From Thioclava sediminum (GTDB lineage: Bacteria; Pseudomonadota; Alphaproteobacteria; Rhodobacterales; Rhodobacteraceae), in contig NZ_MPZV01000002.1 in the NCBI RefSeq assembly GCF_002020355.1, forward strand, positions 806,001-870,000: 64,000 nt of DNA, given 5' to 3'. Positions 28,954 to 37,169 of this stretch are shown here, one piece after another. Both the position numbers and the translations under genes were made by a program. Positions within the stretch are counted from its first letter, which is position 1. Each line of letters begins with the position of its first letter. The notes beneath the pieces were generated by a model. That model ran no database searches, was not told where the DNA came from, and saw only the letters and a list, made by a program, of their open reading frames with translations.

Positions 28954-30924
28954 TCAGGCGGCTTTTTCGGCCGGGGTCGCGAGCGTCACGATATCCATCA
29001 TGATCCGGTTCAGCTCGAAATCCTTGGGCGTATAGACGCGCGCGACGCCGAAGCTCAGGAGCTTCTTCGCGTCCTCATCCGGGATGATCCCGCCGACGAC
29101 GACCGGGACATGGTCGAGGCCAGCGGCGCGCATCCGCTCCATCAACTCCTCGATCAGGGGCATATGCGAGCCCGACAGGATCGACAGCCCCACCACATGC
29201 GCCTCGTCCTCGATGGCTTTGGCGACGATCTGTTCCGGCGTCAGGCGAATGCCGTCATAGGTGATGTCCATGCCGCAATCGCGGGCGCGGAAGGCGATCT
29301 GCTCGGCGCCGTTCGAGTGGCCGTCGAGGCCCGGCTTGCCGACGAGGAATTTCAGACGACGGCCCAGCTGCGAGCTCACCGCATCCACGGCCTCGCGGAT
29401 ATCGTCGAGCCCTTCGGTCTGGTTCGAGGGCGAGCGCGAGACCCCCGTGGGGCCGCGATACTCGCCATGAACGGCGCGCATCACGCCTGCCCATTCGCCG
29501 GTGGTCGCGCCCGCTTTCGCGGCAGCGATCGAAGCTTCCATGATATTCTTGCCAGCCTTCGCGTCCGCCTTGAGTTGCGCGAGCGCATCCTGCACCGCGG
29601 CCTCGTCACGCTCGGCGCGCCAGGCGTTCAGACGGTCGATCTGCTCCTGCTCCACCGCCGGGTCGACGACCATGATGCCGCCATCGCCTGCGGTCAGCGG
29701 CGAGGGTTCGCCCTGCTGCCAGCGGTTCACACCGACGACGATGGTTTCCTCGGCTTCGATCCGGTTGATCCGCGCGGCGTTCGATTCCACCAGACGCGAT
29801 TTCATGTAGTCGATCGCGGCAATCGCCCCGCCCATACCGTCGAGCGTTTCCAGCTCGGCCCGCGCGCCGTCCTTCAGCGCCTCGACCTTCGCACTCACCG
29901 CCGGGTTGCCGTCGAACAGATCGCCATATTCCAGAAGGTCGGTCTCATAGGCCATGATCTGCTGCATCCGCAGCGACCATTGCTGATCCCAGGGGCGCGG
30001 CAGGCCGAGCGCTTCGTTCCAGGCGGGCAGCTGCACCGCGCGGGCGCGCGCGTTCTTCGACAGCGTCACGGCCAGCATCTCGATCAGGATGCGGTAGACG
30101 TTGTTCTCGGGCTGCTGTTCGGTCAGGCCGAGCGAGTTCACCTGCACGCCATAGCGGAAACGGCGGAATTTCTCGTCCTCGACACCGTAACGCTCGCGGC
30201 AGATCTCGTCCCACAGCTCGGTGAAGGCGCGCATCTTGCACATCTCGGTCACAAAGCGGATGCCCGCATTCACGAAGAAGGAGATCCGCCCGACCATCGC
30301 CGGGAAAGCCTCTTCCGGCACCTTGGTTTTCAGATCGTCCAGCACCGCAATCGCGGTCGCAAGCGCGAAGGCTAACTCCTGCTGCGGCGTCGCCCCGGCT
30401 TCCTGCAGGTGATAGGAACACACGTTCATCGGGTTCCATTTCGGCAGGTGCTCGCGGGTATAGGCCGCGACATCGGTGATCATCGCGAGCGAGGGCTTGG
30501 GCGGGCAGATATAGGTGCCGCGCGAGAGATACTCTTTCACCAGATCGTTCTGTACCGTCCCCTGCAGCTTCGACACATCCGCGCCCTGCTCTTCGGCCAC
30601 CGCAATATAGAGCGACAAGAGCCACGGCGCCGTCGCGTTGATCGTCATCGAGGTGTTCATCTGCTCGAGCGGGATTCCATCGAACAGCGCACGCATGTCG
30701 CCCAGATGGCAGACCGGCACGCCGACCTTGCCCACCTCGCCGCGCGACAGGACATGGTCGCTGTCATAGCCGGTCTGGGTCGGCAGGTCGAAAGCAACCG
30801 AAAGACCCGTCTGCCCCTTGGCGAGGTTGTTGCGATAGAGCGCGTTCGAGGCGGCAGCCGTGGAATGGCCCGCATAGGTGCGAAACAGCCAGGGGCGGTC
30901 TTTGGCGGGCATCGTGTCGGTCAT
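28954..30924 (-). CDS. ecm: Ethylmalonyl-CoA mutase
   Basis: Adenosylcobalamin-dependent mutase of the ethylmalonyl-CoA pathway, converting (2R)-ethylmalonyl-CoA to (2S)-methylsuccinyl-CoA. The 656-residue protein (also known as MeaA) has the CoA-binding TIM-barrel mutase domain from about residue 5 (RPWLFRTYAGHSTAAASNALYR) and a C-terminal B12-binding domain with the DGHSNG ligand loop, SILSGSH and VVVGGIIP. Identity as Ecm rather than methylmalonyl-CoA mutase rests on its one-subunit size, the MeaA-like N-terminus and the divergent ccr next door. GGAGG five bases ahead fixes the ATG at 30924. Confidence 0.92.
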   Translation of the reverse strand: MTDTMPAKDRPWLFRTYAGHSTAAASNALYRNNLAKGQTGLSVAFDLPTQTGYDSDHVLSRGEVGKVGVPVCHLGDMRALFDGIPLEQMNTSMTINATAPWLLSLYIAVAEEQGADVSKLQGTVQNDLVKEYLSRGTYICPPKPSLAMITDVAAYTREHLPKWNPMNVCSYHLQEAGATPQQELAFALATAIAVLDDLKTKVPEEAFPAMVGRISFFVNAGIRFVTEMCKMRAFTELWDEICRERYGVEDEKFRRFRYGVQVNSLGLTEQQPENNVYRILIEMLAVTLSKNARARAVQLPAWNEALGLPRPWDQQWSLRMQQIMAYETDLLEYGDLFDGNPAVSAKVEALKDGARAELETLDGMGGAIAAIDYMKSRLVESNAARINRIEAEETIVVGVNRWQQGEPSPLTAGDGGIMVVDPAVEQEQIDRLNAWRAERDEAAVQDALAQLKADAKAGKNIMEASIAAAKAGATTGEWAGVMRAVHGEYRGPTGVSRSPSNQTEGLDDIREAVDAVSSQLGRRLKFLVGKPGLDGHSNGAEQIAFRARDCGMDITYDGIRLTPEQIVAKAIEDEAHVVGLSILSGSHMPLIEELMERMRAAGLDHVPVVVGGIIPDEDAKKLLSFGVARVYTPKDFELNRIMMDIVTLATPAEKAA

Positions 30925-30951
30925 GGCGGCCTCCATCGGAATACGAATCTT

Positions 30952-30976
30952 CGTTGCGCAATATTGTTGCGCGTTG
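30952..30976. promoter_or_regulatory. Paired TTGCGC boxes between ecm and ccr
   Basis: GTTGCGC occurs twice, at 30953-30959 and 30966-30972, and the first copy is part of the self-complementary octamer TTGCGCAA. The arrangement (an 8-mer, 5 bases, a related 8-mer) resembles in style the TTTGCAAA-N4-TTTGCAAA site described for the Rhodobacter acyl-CoA regulator PccR, but the bases differ. It lies 28 bases before the ecm ATG. The rest of the 294-bp gap (30925-31218) shows AT-rich stretches near 30981-31000 and 31063-31070 consistent with divergent promoters, but no unambiguous -35/-10 pair. Confidence 0.4.
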
Positions 30977-31218
30977 GGATGGTTTAAATTGAATTTTGTG
31001 ATCCTGTCAATTCGCTGCAACGCGGCGTGACTCGTTTCACGCAGCGTCCGCGACGCGAAGCTTTATAAATAGGGGCTTGCTCGCAGCTCGAAAATCGAGA
31101 GAGACATAAAATTACAAAAACGGAACGTCAGGGATTGAAAAGTTGCGCAGCCATGCGTATCCCTCTGAACGAACACCGCCCGATTCTGCGGCGCGGCAAG
31201 GACAGACAGGAGAAAGCC

Positions 31219-32511
31219 ATGGCCCTTGATCAGGAAACCGGTATCGCGCCCTACGATGCGCCGGAGAAGGACCTTTACGAGATCGGCGAGATGCCGCCCC
31301 TCGGCTACGTCCCCCCGAAAATGTACGCTTGGGCGATCCGTCGCGAACGCCATGGCGAGCCCGAGCAGTCGTTCCAGCAGGAAGTCGTCGACACCTGGGA
31401 GATCGACAGCCACGAAGTGCTCGTCCTCGTGATGGCCGCGGGCGTGAACTATAACGGCGTCTGGGCCGGTCTCGGCGTTCCGATCTCGCCCTTCGACGGC
31501 CACAAGCAGCCCTATCACATCGCAGGCTCGGACGCGTCCGGCATCGTCTGGAAGGTGGGCGACAAGGTCAAACGCTGGAAAGTCGGCGACGAGGTGGTGA
31601 TCCACTGCAACCAGGACGATGGCGACGACGAAGAGTGCAACGGCGGCGACCCGATGTTCTCTCCCTCCCAGCGGATCTGGGGCTACGAGACGCATGACGG
31701 TTCGTTCTCGCAGTTCACCCGCGTGCAGGCGCAGCAGCTGATGCCGCGCCCGAAGCACCTGACCTGGGAAGAGGCCGCCTGCTACACGCTGACGCTGGCC
31801 ACTGCCTACCGGATGCTGTTCGGTCACCACCCGCATGAGCTCAAGCCCGGTCAGAACGTGCTGGTTTGGGGTGCCTCGGGCGGTCTGGGTTCCTACGCGA
31901 TCCAGCTTGCGAACACCGCGGGCGCCAATGCGATCGGCGTGATCTCGGACGAGAGCAAGCGTCAATTCGTGATGGATCAGGGCGCCAAGGGCGTGATCAA
32001 CCGCAAGGACTTCAAATGCTGGGGCCAGCTGCCCACGGTCAACACGCCGGAATATAACGAGTGGCTGAAAGAGGCCCGCAAGTTCGGCAAGGCGATCTGG
32101 GACATCACCGGCAAGGGCGTGAACGTGGACATGGTCTTCGAACACCCCGGCGAGGCGACTTTCCCGGTTTCGACCCTGATCGTGAAGAAGGGCGGCATGG
32201 TCGTGATCTGCGCCGGCACCTCGGGTTTCAACTGCACTTTCGACGTGCGCTACATGTGGATGCACCAGAAGCGCCTGCAGGGTTCGCACTTCGCAAACCT
32301 CAAGCAAGCAGCCTCGGCCAACAAGCTGATGGTGGAGCGGCGTCTGGACCCCTGCATGTCCGAGGTCTTCCCGTGGGATCAGATTCCGCAGGCCCACACC
32401 AAGATGCTGCGCAACGAGCATAAGCCGGGCAACATGGCCGTGCTGGTGCAGGCGCCCAAAACCGGGCTGCGTACCTTCGAGGACGCGCTGGAAGCGGGTC
32501 GCCGCAACTGA
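31219..32511 (+). CDS. ccrA: Crotonyl-CoA carboxylase/reductase
   Basis: Key enzyme of the ethylmalonyl-CoA pathway: reductive carboxylation of crotonyl-CoA with NADPH and CO2 to ethylmalonyl-CoA. The 430-residue MDR-superfamily protein has the N-terminal GroES-like fold with VMAAGVNYNGVWAGLG (the Asn lines the CO2 pocket in characterised Ccr), WGYETHDGSFSQF, and the Rossmann loop VWGASGGLGSYAIQLA. Its length and the Ecm neighbour distinguish it from plain quinone oxidoreductases. AGGAG ahead of the ATG at 31219 supports this start over a longer reading from 31135. Confidence 0.95.
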   Translation: MALDQETGIAPYDAPEKDLYEIGEMPPLGYVPPKMYAWAIRRERHGEPEQSFQQEVVDTWEIDSHEVLVLVMAAGVNYNGVWAGLGVPISPFDGHKQPYHIAGSDASGIVWKVGDKVKRWKVGDEVVIHCNQDDGDDEECNGGDPMFSPSQRIWGYETHDGSFSQFTRVQAQQLMPRPKHLTWEEAACYTLTLATAYRMLFGHHPHELKPGQNVLVWGASGGLGSYAIQLANTAGANAIGVISDESKRQFVMDQGAKGVINRKDFKCWGQLPTVNTPEYNEWLKEARKFGKAIWDITGKGVNVDMVFEHPGEATFPVSTLIVKKGGMVVICAGTSGFNCTFDVRYMWMHQKRLQGSHFANLKQAASANKLMVERRLDPCMSEVFPWDQIPQAHTKMLRNEHKPGNMAVLVQAPKTGLRTFEDALEAGRRN

Positions 32512-32800: not shown

Positions 32801-33583
32801 TCAAGCAGCTTCGTTCGCATCCTCGGGCTGCTTCGCGCCGGTCATGTAGGCCACCGCATCCGACATCGAATGGTTCTTCGGATCGATCACGCAAAGCCGC
32901 TTGCCCAGCCGGTGAACGTGGACCCGATCCGCCACCTCGAACACATGCGGCATGTTGTGCGAGATCAGGATGATCGGCAGACCTTTTGCCTTGAGATCAA
33001 GGATCAGGTTGAGCACCTGACGGCTTTCCTTCACGCCCAGCGCCGCCGTCGGCTCGTCCATGATGATCACCTTCGACCCGAAGGCCGCCGCACGGGCCAC
33101 CGCCACGCCCTGACGCTGACCACCCGACAGCGTCTCGACCGCCTGATCGATGTCCTGAATGGTCGCCAGCCCCAGATCGTTCAGCTTCTCGCGGGCGAAG
33201 GCGCGCATCGCGGGCTTGTCGAGCATCCGCAGCCATTTGCCCATCGGACCGGCGCGGCGCAACTCGCGCCCGACGAACATGTTGTCCACGATCGACAGCG
33301 CGGGAGAGAGCGCGAGCGTCTGGTAGACCGTCGCGATCCCGGCATCCTGCGCCTCCAGCGGGCTCTTGAAGGAGATCGGCTTGCCTTCGAGCTTGATCTC
33401 GCCCTCGTCGGCCGTAACGGCCCCGGAGATCGCCTTGATGAGCGAGGATTTCCCGGCCCCGTTATCGCCGATCACGGCAAGGATTTCGCCCGGGTAGAGA
33501 TCGAAGTCGCACTCGTCGAGGGCGGTGACGCGGCCATAGCGTTTGACCAGACCGCGTGCGGTGAGAATGGGTTCTTGCGTCAT
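32801..33583 (-). CDS. Sugar ABC transporter ATP-binding protein (FrcA-like)
   Basis: Single-domain ABC ATPase of 260 residues: Walker A VIGDNGAGKSSLI near 37-49, signature LSGGQRQGVAVARA and Walker B VIIMDEPTAALG. A one-domain ATPase with one permease is the FrcBCA (fructose/ribose/mannose) layout of rhizobia, unlike the two-domain RbsA. AAAGG lies 7 bases before the ATG at 33583. The start overlaps the permease stop by 4 bases (ATGA). A longer frame to 34144 is only the permease in another phase. Confidence 0.88.
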   Translation of the reverse strand: MTQEPILTARGLVKRYGRVTALDECDFDLYPGEILAVIGDNGAGKSSLIKAISGAVTADEGEIKLEGKPISFKSPLEAQDAGIATVYQTLALSPALSIVDNMFVGRELRRAGPMGKWLRMLDKPAMRAFAREKLNDLGLATIQDIDQAVETLSGGQRQGVAVARAAAFGSKVIIMDEPTAALGVKESRQVLNLILDLKAKGLPIILISHNMPHVFEVADRVHVHRLGKRLCVIDPKNHSMSDAVAYMTGAKQPEDANEAA

Positions 33584-34656
33584 GCCGAAACCTTTCTGAT
33601 CCATTGGTCGATAGCGACCGCGATGATGATGAGCCAGCCGATGGCGAAGACCTGCCAGAGCACGTCCACATTCGCGAGCCGCAGCCCCGACTGGAACACG
33701 CCCACGATCAGCGCCCCGAACAATGCGCCGAGGATCGAGCCGCGCCCGCCGAAGAGCGAGATGCCCCCGATCACCACGGCGGTGATGGAATGCAGGTTCG
33801 CCTCGTAGAAGGCCTGCGGCGAGATCGATCCCACGCGGCCGATCGACGCCCAGGCTGCGATCGCGCAGACGAGACCCGCCAGACCGTAGACCGACAGCAG
33901 CGTGCGGTCGGTGCGGATACCCGCGAGTTCCGCCGCCTCCTTGTCGTCGCCCACGGCATAGACGTGGCGGCCCCAGGCGGTCTTGTTCAGCAGATACCAG
34001 AGCACTAGGAACACCACGACCATCAGGACCGAGCCATAGGTCAGTCGCGCATTGCCGACGGTGATCGTGTTGCCGAAGAATTTCAGAAGGGGCGCGAACT
34101 TGTCGATATCCTGCGAGCGGATCGACTGCGCGCCCGAAAGCCACAGGTTCAGCGCGTAGAAGATCGACCAGGTGCCGAGCGTGGTGATGAAGGGCGGCAG
34201 TTTCACCTTGGTGACGAGGAAGCCGTTCAGCAAACCGGCGCCGGTGCCGCCTGCGAAGGAAATCAGCAGCGCGATCGGTGCGGGCACGCCCATGTAGACG
34301 GCAAGGTTGCCGGCGATCACCGACATCAGCACCATGATCGCGGCCACCGAAAGGTCGATGCCTGCGGTCAGGATGATCAGCGATTGCGCCGCAGCCAGCA
34401 TCCCGATGATCGAGACCTGCTGCATGATCAGGGTCAGGTTGAAGGCGGAGAAAAACTTGCCCCCTGCGACCAGGCCGAACACGGCGACGGACAACAGAAG
34501 CACGATCACCGGCACCATCGTCGGATTGCCGTGCAGCCCGTGCTGGATCGTGCCGAGAAGCCCGCGTTTCTTACTCTTGAAGGCCGCGACGGTCTTGTCG
34601 CTTTGGTCGAGGCCGTGCTCGAAGGACTGGCCGCGAGGCGGAACGGTCTGGGTCAT
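33580..34656 (-). CDS. Sugar ABC transporter permease (FrcC-like)
   Basis: RbsC/FrcC-family permease of 358 residues with about ten membrane segments. Motifs: SLIILTAGIDLSVAAIM, the loop GRHVYAVGDDKEAAELAGIRT that contacts the ATPase, and GGISLFGGRGSILGA. A ribosome-binding AGAGG lies directly against an ATG at 34665, too close to serve it, and 9 bases before the ATG at 34656, so the latter is chosen. A strong intergenic hairpin separates it from the binding-protein gene. Confidence 0.87.
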   Translation of the reverse strand: MTQTVPPRGQSFEHGLDQSDKTVAAFKSKKRGLLGTIQHGLHGNPTMVPVIVLLLSVAVFGLVAGGKFFSAFNLTLIMQQVSIIGMLAAAQSLIILTAGIDLSVAAIMVLMSVIAGNLAVYMGVPAPIALLISFAGGTGAGLLNGFLVTKVKLPPFITTLGTWSIFYALNLWLSGAQSIRSQDIDKFAPLLKFFGNTITVGNARLTYGSVLMVVVFLVLWYLLNKTAWGRHVYAVGDDKEAAELAGIRTDRTLLSVYGLAGLVCAIAAWASIGRVGSISPQAFYEANLHSITAVVIGGISLFGGRGSILGALFGALIVGVFQSGLRLANVDVLWQVFAIGWLIIIAVAIDQWIRKVSA

Positions 34657-34710
34657 GTCCGTCATCCTCTTTGTGCAATGTGGGGTGAAGGGCCGTCACG
34701 CGGCCCAAAG

Positions 34711-34757: not shown

Positions 34758-35771
34758 TCAGCCCCAGCACTGTTTCAGGCCTTCTTCCGACGAGATCGAG
34801 TCGATGCCGTCGACCGGCTGATCGGTGATCAGCGTCACGCCGGTGTTGTAGAAGTCGAGACCTTCGGAGTTCTGCGGCTTGGTGCCGTCCTTGGCGAAGG
34901 CCGCGATCGCTTCGATGCCCATCGAGGCCATCTTCAGCGGGAACTGCATCGAGGTCGCGCCAATGATGCCTTCCTTGACGTTCTGCACGCCCGGGCAGCC
35001 GCCATCGACCGAAACGATGATCGCCTGATCCTGCATGCCGACCGATTTCAGCGCCTCGTAGGCACCGGCGGCAGCGGGCTCGTTGATCGTGTAGACGACG
35101 TTGATGCCCGGATCCTTCTGGAGAAGGTTCTCCATCGCGGTGCGGCCGCCCTGCTCGTTGCCGTTGGTCACGTCATGGCCGACGATGCGCGGATCGTCTT
35201 CGTCGCCGATCTTCTTCTCGTCTTTGATGTCGATGCCGAAGCCCTTCATGAAGCCCTGATCGCGCAGGTAATCGACCGAGACCTGGCTCGGGTTGAGGTC
35301 GAGGAAGCCGATCTTCGCATCCGCAGCCTTGTCGCCCATTTTCGCCTTGGCCCACTGACCGATCAGCTCGCCTGCCTTGAAGTTGTCGGTGGCGAAGGTC
35401 GCATCGGCGGTGTCGGCGGGCTCGAACGGGGTGTCGAGCGCGATCACCAGCGCACCGGCCTCGCGCGCCTTCGTAACCGCAGGCGCAAGCGCACGGCTGT
35501 CGGACGGGGTGATCAGGATACCCTTGGCGCCTGCCGCGATGCAGCTTTCGACCGCCGCGACCTGGCTTTCCACGTCGCCGTCGAGCTTGCCCGCATAGGT
35601 GTTGAGCGTAATGCCCATCTCTTTGGCCTTGGCCGAGGCACCCTCTTTCATCTTCACGAAGAACGGGTTGGTGTCGGTCTTGGTGATCAGGCAGGCAGTG
35701 GTTTCCGCCCAAGCGCCCGTCGCCATCAGACCGAGCGCGGTCGCACCGAGAATTGCGGTTTTCTTCATCAT
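34758..35771 (-). CDS. Sugar ABC transporter substrate-binding protein (FrcB-like)
   Basis: Periplasmic binding protein of 337 residues, peripla_BP_4/RbsB fold. The signal peptide [22 protein letters not shown] precedes [22 protein letters not shown], the typical ligand-entry strand. [16 protein letters not shown] and [16 protein letters not shown] are hinge and pocket segments. GGAGGAG lies 7 bases before the ATG. The frcB-frcC-frcA order with a divergent ROK regulator suggests fructose or a related monosaccharide, but the sugar is inferred only from layout. Confidence 0.87.
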
Positions 35772-35826
35772 GTCAGGTCTCCTCCCAGAAACAATTCAGC
35801 CGTCTCTCCGATCGGCTTCGAGGCAA

Positions 35827-35856
35827 ATCATGTGCGAAGACGGGGCGACTCGTCAA
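35827..35856 (-). promoter_or_regulatory. Predicted promoter of the sugar transporter operon
   Basis: On the minus strand TTGACG (35851-35856) is followed after 18 bp by CATGAT (35827-35832), 4/6 matches to TATAAT. The -35 overlaps one edge of the palindrome at 35853-35885. Confidence 0.5.
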
Positions 35857-35885
35857 TAGATAAATCACGTGGATTTATTAATTGA
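35853..35885. promoter_or_regulatory. Large palindrome, likely operator of the ROK regulator
   Basis: Arms TCAATAGATAAATC (35853-35866) and GATTTATTAATTGA (35872-35885) match at 12 of 14 positions around the centre ACGTG. It overlaps the -35 hexamers of both divergent promoters, so a bound repressor would shut both directions. Confidence 0.6.
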
Positions 35886-35911
35886 CAGAACACCCTCTGG
35901 AAGCCGATAAA
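35882..35911 (+). promoter_or_regulatory. Predicted promoter of the ROK regulator gene
   Basis: A perfect -35 TTGACA (35882-35887) is followed after 18 bp by GATAAA (35906-35911). The spacing mirrors that of the divergent promoter on the minus strand. Confidence 0.55.
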
Positions 35912-35954
35912 TACTCAGCGTAACTTAAGCGCGAGCAGCCTCGGAGAATGAACT

Positions 35955-37169
35955 GTGCCCCAGCGCGTGATGGAAATGATCAAGACCGCCCCGGTGAAAA
36001 TTGGCACGGATCATTCCTCGATGCGCAACCGCAACGAACGGCTGGTGATGTCGCTGATTCGTCGCCGTGGCGCCTTGGCGAAATCAGAGATCGCGCGGAT
36101 GACGGGCCTCTCGGCGCAGACCGTCTCCGTCATCATGCGTGCGCTCGAAGATGAAGGCTTCCTGCTGCGCTGCGACCCGGTGCGCGGCAAGGTCGGTCAG
36201 CCCACGGTGCCGATGCGCCTGAACCCAGAAGGCGCGTATTTTCTGGGCCTGAAAGTCGGACGTCGCCGCAGCGAAGTGATCCTGATCGACATGATGGGCA
36301 CACCGATCTCGCGCAGCGTCTCGCGCCACGACTACCCCACCGCCGCCGATACCATCGCCTTCGCCATCGACGCGATCGCCCGGATGGTGACGGAGTTGCC
36401 CGCCTCGAAACGCGAACGCATCTCGGGTCTCGGCATCGGCGCGCCGTTCCGGATGTGGGACTGGGGCGTCGCGCTCGGCCTCGACGAAAGTGCGATGGCC
36501 GATTGGCGCGAGCGCGACATCCGCGCCGAGCTGGAGGCGATCTACCCGTTCCCCGTGGTGCTGGAAAACGACGCCTCCGCCGCCTGTTCGGCAGAGCTGT
36601 TGCTGGGCGATCAGACGCTGCCGGACGATTTCCTCTATGCGTTCGTCGGCTTCTTCGTGGGCGGCGGGCTGGTGATGAACGGCTCGCTTGTGACCGGCCC
36701 CAACAACAATGCGGGCGCGCTTGCGTCGATGCCTGTGCCCGACGGTCACGGCGGCCAGTGCCAATTGCTCGACGTGGCCTCGCTCTCAGCCATCGAGACG
36801 GCCATGGCCGAGCGCGGTCTCAATGCGAGCTTCCTCTGGGAGCGGCGCGATGTGTGGGACCTTCCCGAAGACATCGTCGAGGACTGGCTCGCGAAAGCGG
36901 CGCGCGGTCTCGCGACTGTCGCCGCGTCCTCGGCTGCGCTGTGCGATCTCGACGCCATCGTGATCGACGGCTGGATGCCTGACGATCTGCGCGCGCGGCT
37001 CGTCGCCGCAACCGAAGCGGAACTGGCGAAGATCAACCTCTCGGGCGCGGGCGTTCCGATAGTGCGCGAGGGTCAGGTGGGCCCCGATGCCCGCGCGCTG
37101 GGGGCTGCAACCCTGCCGCTGAGCCTGCGTTTCCTGACCGAGATCGACCTGCCCGATCAGGCCGACTGA
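35955..37169 (+). CDS. ROK family transcriptional regulator
   Basis: Protein of 404 residues with an N-terminal winged helix-turn-helix (about 25-85: RNERLVMSLIRRRGALAKSEIARMTGLSAQTVS) and a ROK sugar-kinase-like domain (GLGIGAPF, VVLENDASAACSAELLLG). The CxCGxxGC zinc motif of active ROK kinases and Mlc/NagC proteins is not present; GHGGQCQLLDVASLSAIE stands in its place, so it is a regulator rather than a kinase. The GTG start at 35955 has GGAG 8 bases upstream. Divergent from the sugar ABC operon, whose genes it very likely controls. Confidence 0.85.
   Translation: MPQRVMEMIKTAPVKIGTDHSSMRNRNERLVMSLIRRRGALAKSEIARMTGLSAQTVSVIMRALEDEGFLLRCDPVRGKVGQPTVPMRLNPEGAYFLGLKVGRRRSEVILIDMMGTPISRSVSRHDYPTAADTIAFAIDAIARMVTELPASKRERISGLGIGAPFRMWDWGVALGLDESAMADWRERDIRAELEAIYPFPVVLENDASAACSAELLLGDQTLPDDFLYAFVGFFVGGGLVMNGSLVTGPNNNAGALASMPVPDGHGGQCQLLDVASLSAIETAMAERGLNASFLWERRDVWDLPEDIVEDWLAKAARGLATVAASSAALCDLDAIVIDGWMPDDLRARLVAATEAELAKINLSGAGVPIVREGQVGPDARALGAATLPLSLRFLTEIDLPDQAD

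Follow-up and report, generated by a model that had tools for sequence, protein, structure and literature searches.

How one short stretch of DNA could serve two divergent promoters at once, and which proteins would read it, is the question raised by a locus of Thioclava sediminum, whose genome (4.13 Mb in 8 contigs) belongs to the genus Thioclava of the order Rhodobacterales. In the window, which is the whole 64,000-nucleotide stretch analysed, a sugar ABC transporter operon on the minus strand lies divergent from a ROK-family regulator gene on the plus strand (35955–37169). The operon encodes an RbsB-like substrate-binding protein (34758–35771; PF13407, 163 bits, below all NCBIfam cut-offs), a permease (33580–34665; PF02653) and an ATPase (32801–33583; PF00005), whose start was set at MTQEPIL inside a longer open frame. 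Directly beyond the operon lie open frames (28954–32511) that presumably encode proteins resembling ethylmalonyl-CoA mutase and crotonyl-CoA reductase.

The palindrome and its two promoters

Between the two genes, the first-pass annotation had described a palindrome with 14-bp arms that overlap the -35 boxes of both promoters. The sequence is as claimed: in the whole element, GTCAATAGATAAATC-ACGTG-GATTTATTAATTGAC (35852–35886), 12 of the 14 arm positions pair, and 13 of 15 do so over 15-bp arms. The arms are AT-rich in a GC-rich setting, the palindrome having a G+C of 10/35 against 64.8% in the window. Chance had been called less likely for this reason, and the counts agree: allowing up to three mismatches, the window holds a single copy of the palindrome (none in 100 shuffles), which is also the only one in the 4.13 Mb genome, where the backward-read control gives 0. 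The palindrome is real, and it is conserved.

Both promoters are also found where they had been placed. On the minus strand, TTGACG-18-CATGAT (35856–35827; -35 box at 35851–35856, -10 box at 35827–35832, 18-bp spacer) is the sole sigma-70-like site that the promoter scanner returns in 35700–36000, and it faces the transporter operon. On the plus strand, the regulator promoter TTGACA-18-GATAAA (-35 box at 35882–35887, candidate -10 at 35906–35911, 18-bp spacer) is present in the sequence, though the scanner does not list it, because the sixth base of GATAAA is not the T that it requires. In the family, the -10 consensus on the ROK side is CAWTnT at a spacing of 17 bp (110 loci).

A search with the ROK protein gave a match in 14 of 16 genomes of the genus and, at 1e-40, in 153 of 295 genomes of the family. 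A first set holds 76 loci, reduced to 71 once 5 repeats of the same place are removed, 64 of them with a binding-protein gene; it leaves out 8 family matches among those listed down to E ~1e-98. A second set takes the best 80 of 476 confirmed loci, 68 of them with a binding-protein gene. When rows identical over 63 bases are counted once, the combined set has 128 loci (69 from set 1 and 59 from set 2), among which close relatives remain. The 62 set-1 rows within the 101 loci classed as Rhodobacterales are so classed because they share the family of the window, and two loci titled Alphaproteobacteria or Pseudomonadota only (L158, L172) were counted with them. Nine loci were assigned to Hyphomicrobiales by genus name, with the order confirmed for Oricola and Nitratireductor and the look-up ambiguous for Labrys; the Mesorhizobium loci are ones that we take to belong there.

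The single site placed to control both divergent promoters is kept in relatives with the same gene order. By tblastn, the binding-protein gene lies upstream and divergent in 64 of the 71 distinct set-1 loci. The best match to the core ATAAATC-n5-GATTTAT scores 12–14/14 in 64 of these 71 loci and 10–11 in the other 7 (L053, L054, L068, L091, L093, L094, L097); in set 2, the best 80 of 476 loci, it scores 12–14/14 in 64, 10–11 in 15 and 8 in one. Scores of 10–11 are close to the regional background, in which second-best stretches reach 8–12. Column counts over 110 unique transporter-adjacent loci give a 19-bp consensus, ATAAATCA-nnn-TGATTTAT, whose positions T2, A4 and T6 are invariant (110/110). 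The window carries it with one mismatch as ATAAATCACGTGGATTTAT (35860–35878), the predicted ROK operator core. Outside the promoter elements, transporter-side DNA shows random-level identity (mean pairwise 0.307).

The two -35 boxes are conserved as well, but not in a fixed register with this core. On the ROK side TTGAC is exact in 101 of 110 loci. In set 1, the distance from the transporter -35 box to the core is 3, 5 or 6 nt in 39, 19 and 6 of 64 loci, and the ROK-side TTGAC usually stands at 2 nt (42 of 67 loci) or at 3 nt (23 of 67). As the TTGAC boxes shift against the core, the palindrome is not one operator with 14-bp arms. Sequence comparison reveals a composite, in which the predicted operator occupies the inner core and the -35 boxes of the two promoters make up the outer parts. 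The half-site, given before as TCAATnnATAAATC, has to be corrected to ATAAATCA, since its TCAAT part belongs to a -35 box.

A scan of the Thioclava genome for the core pattern, tolerating at most two mismatches, gives one exact site, that of the window, and three 2-mismatch sites. A wider regulon of the ROK protein was considered on this basis and rejected: one 2-mismatch site was inspected, and it had no ROK link. That site, the core-like palindrome GTAAATCCTCGAGATTAAT (L184, ~2031–2049; G000:C1:1527631–1527649), lies upstream of a gene that is LysR-like by eye, and four further genomes of the genus have it too, one of them with a changed spacer.

Recognition helix and predicted operator of the ROK protein

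The obvious neighbour of the core is the regulator itself. Its ROK domain matches PF00480 with 76.3 bits (curated cut-off 22.9), and residues 24–69 form an N-terminal winged helix-turn-helix (PF13412, 31.6 bits; cut-off 21.9). The cysteine-rich zinc motif is typical of the ROK family, though not universal, and its absence from this regulator, already pointed out in the first-pass annotation, extends to its relatives: no CxCGxxGC-like motif is seen by eye in the window protein and 8 aligned relatives. Within the window's own genome, the ROK protein has a single match.

The recognition helix was compared with the operator at 161 loci, counting as an operator any core of 13/16 or better and numbering residues by P0001. 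Where position 55 is Gln (152 proteins), the ATAAATCA operator is present in 141 and absent in 11. Where it is Asn, the operator is found in 0 of 6 loci, and 5 of these 6, all from the window's genus, carry instead a AAAACTTC-n5-GAAGTTTT palindrome; where it is Pro, it is found in 0 of 3. Since the recognition helix and the operator change together, the product of the adjoining ROK gene is the probable binder of the core and repressor of both promoters. The covariation is good support and not proof, because the switches are few and fall in about two clades. Binding of the ROK protein to the core, with autorepression, is predicted with high confidence from these comparisons; that the protein would act as a repressor rather than as an activator is suggested by position only. 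From such pairs of helix and operator, Gln going with ATAAATCA, Asn going with AAAACTTC and Pro going with neither, a recognition code for ROK regulators could also begin to be built.

Other members of the group present variants of this arrangement. Two loci (L200, L207) have SKPTVS recognition helices and a near-palindrome, ATAAGTAAGTTAACTTTAC, upstream in both, perhaps a third operator type. In five genomes of the genus Thioclava, a second transporter copy stands beside a different ROK gene with a AAAACTTC-type operator (L005 and L019, both of genome G012, and L011 and L016–L018), and its binding protein is 87–100% identical to that of the window (five genomes, one protein seen in part). The Thioclava dalianensis orthologue of the ROK protein (L009) has a stop codon inside the match, with its operator and GANTC intact. 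A sister ROK group, sampled at 28 loci (20 from the family and 8 from the genus), has 38–43% identity and lies beside the same kind of transporter.

Eleven genomes in which the ROK gene lacks an adjacent transporter were searched with the binding protein, and 6 of them have the transporter elsewhere at 1e-60. In five of the six, all Rhodobacter, the separated transporter promoter has a core of 14–15/16 with TTGAC 3 nt away, and the opposite TTGAC is absent. The ROK copies of the same five genomes have cores of 11, 12, 13, 15 and 15 of 16, of which the two lowest are degenerate, each with a TTGAC of its own at 3 or 7 nt. In the sixth case (Aliiruegeria), the operator is absent at both the transporter and the ROK gene. 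The operator and its regulator tend to move, and to be lost, as a pair.

A conserved GANTC site in the transporter promoter

A further element, absent from the first-pass annotation, is a GANTC site, the target of CcrM methylation, between the -35 and -10 boxes of the transporter promoter. In the window it reads GACTC on the plus strand and GAGTC on the minus strand (35847–35851), and overlaps the last base of the -35 box. If its offset is measured from the start of the -35 box to the start of GANTC, 77 of 101 Rhodobacterales loci have the site at 13–16, 8 at 5–7 and 3 at 2, and 13 have none; in 2000 shuffles of the spacers, offset 13–16 is hit in 1.4 loci on average and in 7 at most. The opposite promoter serves as a control: of the 93 loci among these whose ROK-side TTGAC is exact, 3 have the site there at 13–16, 7 at 3–12 and 2 at offset 2, and 81 lack it. 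In set 1, GANTC starts 1–20 nt from the -35 start in 58 of 64 transporter-side loci, 47 of them at 14–16, and in 7 of 67 loci towards the ROK gene. Each of eleven control pentamers reaches 0–13 loci, except TGNCA with 27, which is the -35 box itself. Clustering of similar flanks yields 69 clusters, with the common-position GANTC in at least one member of 52 and in all members of 48.

The site also follows the transporter when the genes part. The five separated Rhodobacter transporter promoters have GACTC at offset 14, and the ROK copies of those genomes have no GANTC within 60 nt on either side, so that comparison of the six separated cases ties GANTC to the transporter promoter in five. ROK loci that have no binding-protein gene carry it in 1/18, that one at a contig end, though they are a weak control because TTGAC is exact in only 4 of the 18 on that side. 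Of the 28 loci of the sister ROK group, 13 have GANTC at 14–15, 6 lack such a site despite having a -35 box, and 9 were left unscored, with no -35 box beside the core. The five Thioclava loci with the AAAACTTC operator have none (0/5) within the 45 nt examined.

Sites at other offsets have to be read with more care. Among the 24 transporter-side loci that lack the common site, 8 have GANTC at offset 5–7, compared with 0.6 expected by shuffling (0/5000 shuffles reach 8) and ~1.8 if the ROK-side rate is used. These 8 loci amount to six events when three near-identical Thioclava rows are counted as one, or five with T. atlantica merged, and since the ROK side itself is hit at 3–12 in 7 of 93 loci, they are moderate evidence only. 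GANTC at offset 2 (TTGACTC) was rejected as evidence, as it comes with the -35 box by chance. Three broader ideas were also discarded. TTGAC-N9/10-GANTC is no general promoter class, the pattern TTGACN{9,10}GANTC occurring 10 times in the own genome against 23 for the control; a weak -10 box is no hallmark of GcrA, because the -10 of Hyphomicrobiales loci that lack GANTC is T-rich in a similar way and that of the offset-14 loci is better; and a rigid spacing from GANTC to the -10 box is not found, alignment on the -35 box being sharper. Taken over the family, GANTC is likely to be a functional methylation site.

It could be argued that the locus holds a plain ROK operator, and that GANTC is a leftover or answers to some other conserved need in which methylation control has no part. 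The Hyphomicrobiales loci are what would be expected under that reading, as they keep the core and the exact transporter -35 box (7/9), yet GANTC is absent in 8 of 9 and found in one; the displacement of the site in the window species and the lack of a general TTGAC-N9/10-GANTC promoter class point the same way. A leftover would not, however, be expected to be the only strongly conserved block of the spacer, kept in 77 of 101 loci among other bases at random-level identity, nor to be confined so closely to one promoter (3/93 on the ROK side) and to stay with it in 5 of 6 separated cases, and the plain operator is considered unlikely.

GANTC-like blocks could also be half-sites of some other transcription factor, a carbon or stress regulator for example. 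The third base of the pentamer is indeed biased to A or T in 70 of the 77 loci (A49, T21, C4, G3), and the pentamer hardly shifts in position, which is what a protein contact would give. All four bases are nevertheless found there and the bases beside the pentamer hold little information, which fits GANTC and not a longer protein site; the occurrence at 5–7 nt in 8 of 24 loci that lack the common site, moderate evidence as it is, argues in the same direction, and a half-site of this kind is quite improbable. That the whole 35-bp palindrome, with its 14–15-bp arms, would be the ROK operator and its -35 overlap incidental is the most improbable proposal, for although the window palindrome is nearly perfect over 15-bp arms and an exact TTGAC stands within 6 nt of the core in 101/101 transporter-adjacent Rhodobacterales loci, the spacing between the core and the transporter-side TTGAC varies (3, 5 or 6 nt), and in 5 of 6 separated transporter promoters the core has a single TTGAC beside it, that of the promoter itself.

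The GANTC of the window species itself stands at offset 5, and in most relatives the site is ~10 nt further towards the -10 box; it is at offset 15 in T. dalianensis and at 7 in T. atlantica. The site may thus have moved by about one helical turn in the window species. With GANTC displaced to offset 5, its function is less certain here than in the family, and for this species the chances that it is a functional methylation site seem evenly balanced.

The genome has candidate genes for the proteins that such a site would call for. A gcrA gene is recognised by PF07750 (160.5 bits), which among the controls also matches Caulobacter and one Sulfolobus, and a ccrM-type gene by the RAMA domain PF18755 (73.3 bits), which among the controls matches only Caulobacter; the latter call rests on the RAMA domain. 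The extended motif YGAKTCK, reported for Caulobacter, is not enriched in the family: 32 of 78 sites fit it in either orientation, against 29 expected. The window site, CGAGTCG, does fit it, and according to passages of one study (PMC7987155) the YGAKTCK preference is absent in Brevundimonas.

Several reports, in the portions available, bear on how such sites work. In Caulobacter, GANTC between the -10 and -35 boxes marks a class of cell-cycle-timed promoters, and only 31% of GcrA-bound cell-cycle start sites have GANTC within 50 bp (PMC4287350, in part). Excerpts from two studies describe GcrA as binding methylated GANTC and recruiting the polymerase (PMC3667746), and as stimulating open complexes at methylated promoters (PMC7403470). 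Genes with a conserved GANTC are more often misregulated when CcrM is missing, to go by sections of PMC3973325 and PMC3708114. For Rhodobacterales, it has been suggested, in the accessible text of PMC8116508, that replication-dependent methylation may not be a major determinant of expression. That GcrA is the reader of the transporter-promoter GANTC is a proposal with about an even chance of being right.

The proposed switch and its relation to known systems

The best explanation of the locus is a ROK switch on the core with GANTC methylation as a second input to the transporter promoter, which we regard as fairly probable from the sequence comparisons. A dimer of the neighbouring ROK protein would sit on the 19-bp core through its recognition helix and, because the core lies a few bases from both -35 boxes, would shut RNA polymerase out of the transporter operon and of its own gene. 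An inducing sugar would release it, as the position of the core and ROK biology suggest. At the transporter promoter of most Rhodobacterales loci, and not at the ROK promoter, the recruitment of polymerase would depend on the adenine methylation of the GANTC between -35 and -10, read most likely by GcrA, a sigma-70 cofactor. Transporter expression would then need both the release of ROK by the sugar and the proper methylation state, so that uptake capacity would be linked to replication and the cell cycle.

Extended to the Rhodobacterales as a whole, this becomes an AND gate, in which sugar would lift ROK from the -35 region and CcrM methylation, read by GcrA with sigma-70, would license the polymerase; it is put forward tentatively, its chances being a little below even. 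If true, it would couple nutrient uptake directly to chromosome replication, in the very order where replication-dependent methylation has been suggested to play no major role in expression. By itself, the ROK switch is a known type of system, and the conserved GANTC in a sugar-uptake promoter is the new feature. Should this GANTC be a methylation site, metabolic capacity would be a direct output of the replication cycle; the CcrM and GcrA targets named in the literature, as far as the parts available go, are mostly Caulobacter genes for division, replication and polarity. In open-access literature, no report was found on the ROK core operator or on GANTC in the transporter promoter.

As to the sugar, the name of fructose-specific transporter is unsupported, since the binding protein reaches no curated NCBIfam cut-off (no equivalog). 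RbsD/FucU-type genes occur in the cluster of 3 of 4 relatives inspected (L064, L085 and L182, not L183), two of which had been picked for an extra gene, and these mutarotase genes may be a hint at the sugar. They are located between the operator and the ROK gene or after the latter (L064, 4079–4531; L085, 4014–4451; L182, 6172–6600). In the two relatives that are annotated (L182, L183), the ATPase gene is followed by a nucleoside-kinase-like one.

ROK-family proteins such as NagC, Mlc and XylR are local sugar repressors, and the present system resembles theirs in its ROK domain and N-terminal winged helix-turn-helix, its AT-rich palindrome beside the regulator gene and the adjoining sugar transporter. 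It differs from them in that the ROK group of the window (9 aligned proteins) lacks the zinc motif and in that its operator, ATAAATCA-nnn-TGATTTAT, is edged by two -35 boxes. FrcBCAK/FrcR, the fructose system of Sinorhizobium with a divergent ROK gene, shares the transporter type and the divergent regulator. A cluster on pSymB of S. meliloti has a ROK protein of 42.6% identity and the same gene order, and differs in holding an RbsD/FucU-type gene. With the GcrA/CcrM promoters of Caulobacter (mipZ, ftsZ, podJ), the family shares a conserved promoter GANTC, as portions of PMC3708114 and PMC3667746 describe it, and would fall in the class placed between -35 and -10 (PMC4287350, in the part available). 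The difference from those promoters is that the gene product serves nutrient uptake and not division or polarity, that a sugar-type operator is found at the -35 box and that the offset of GANTC has moved in the window species.
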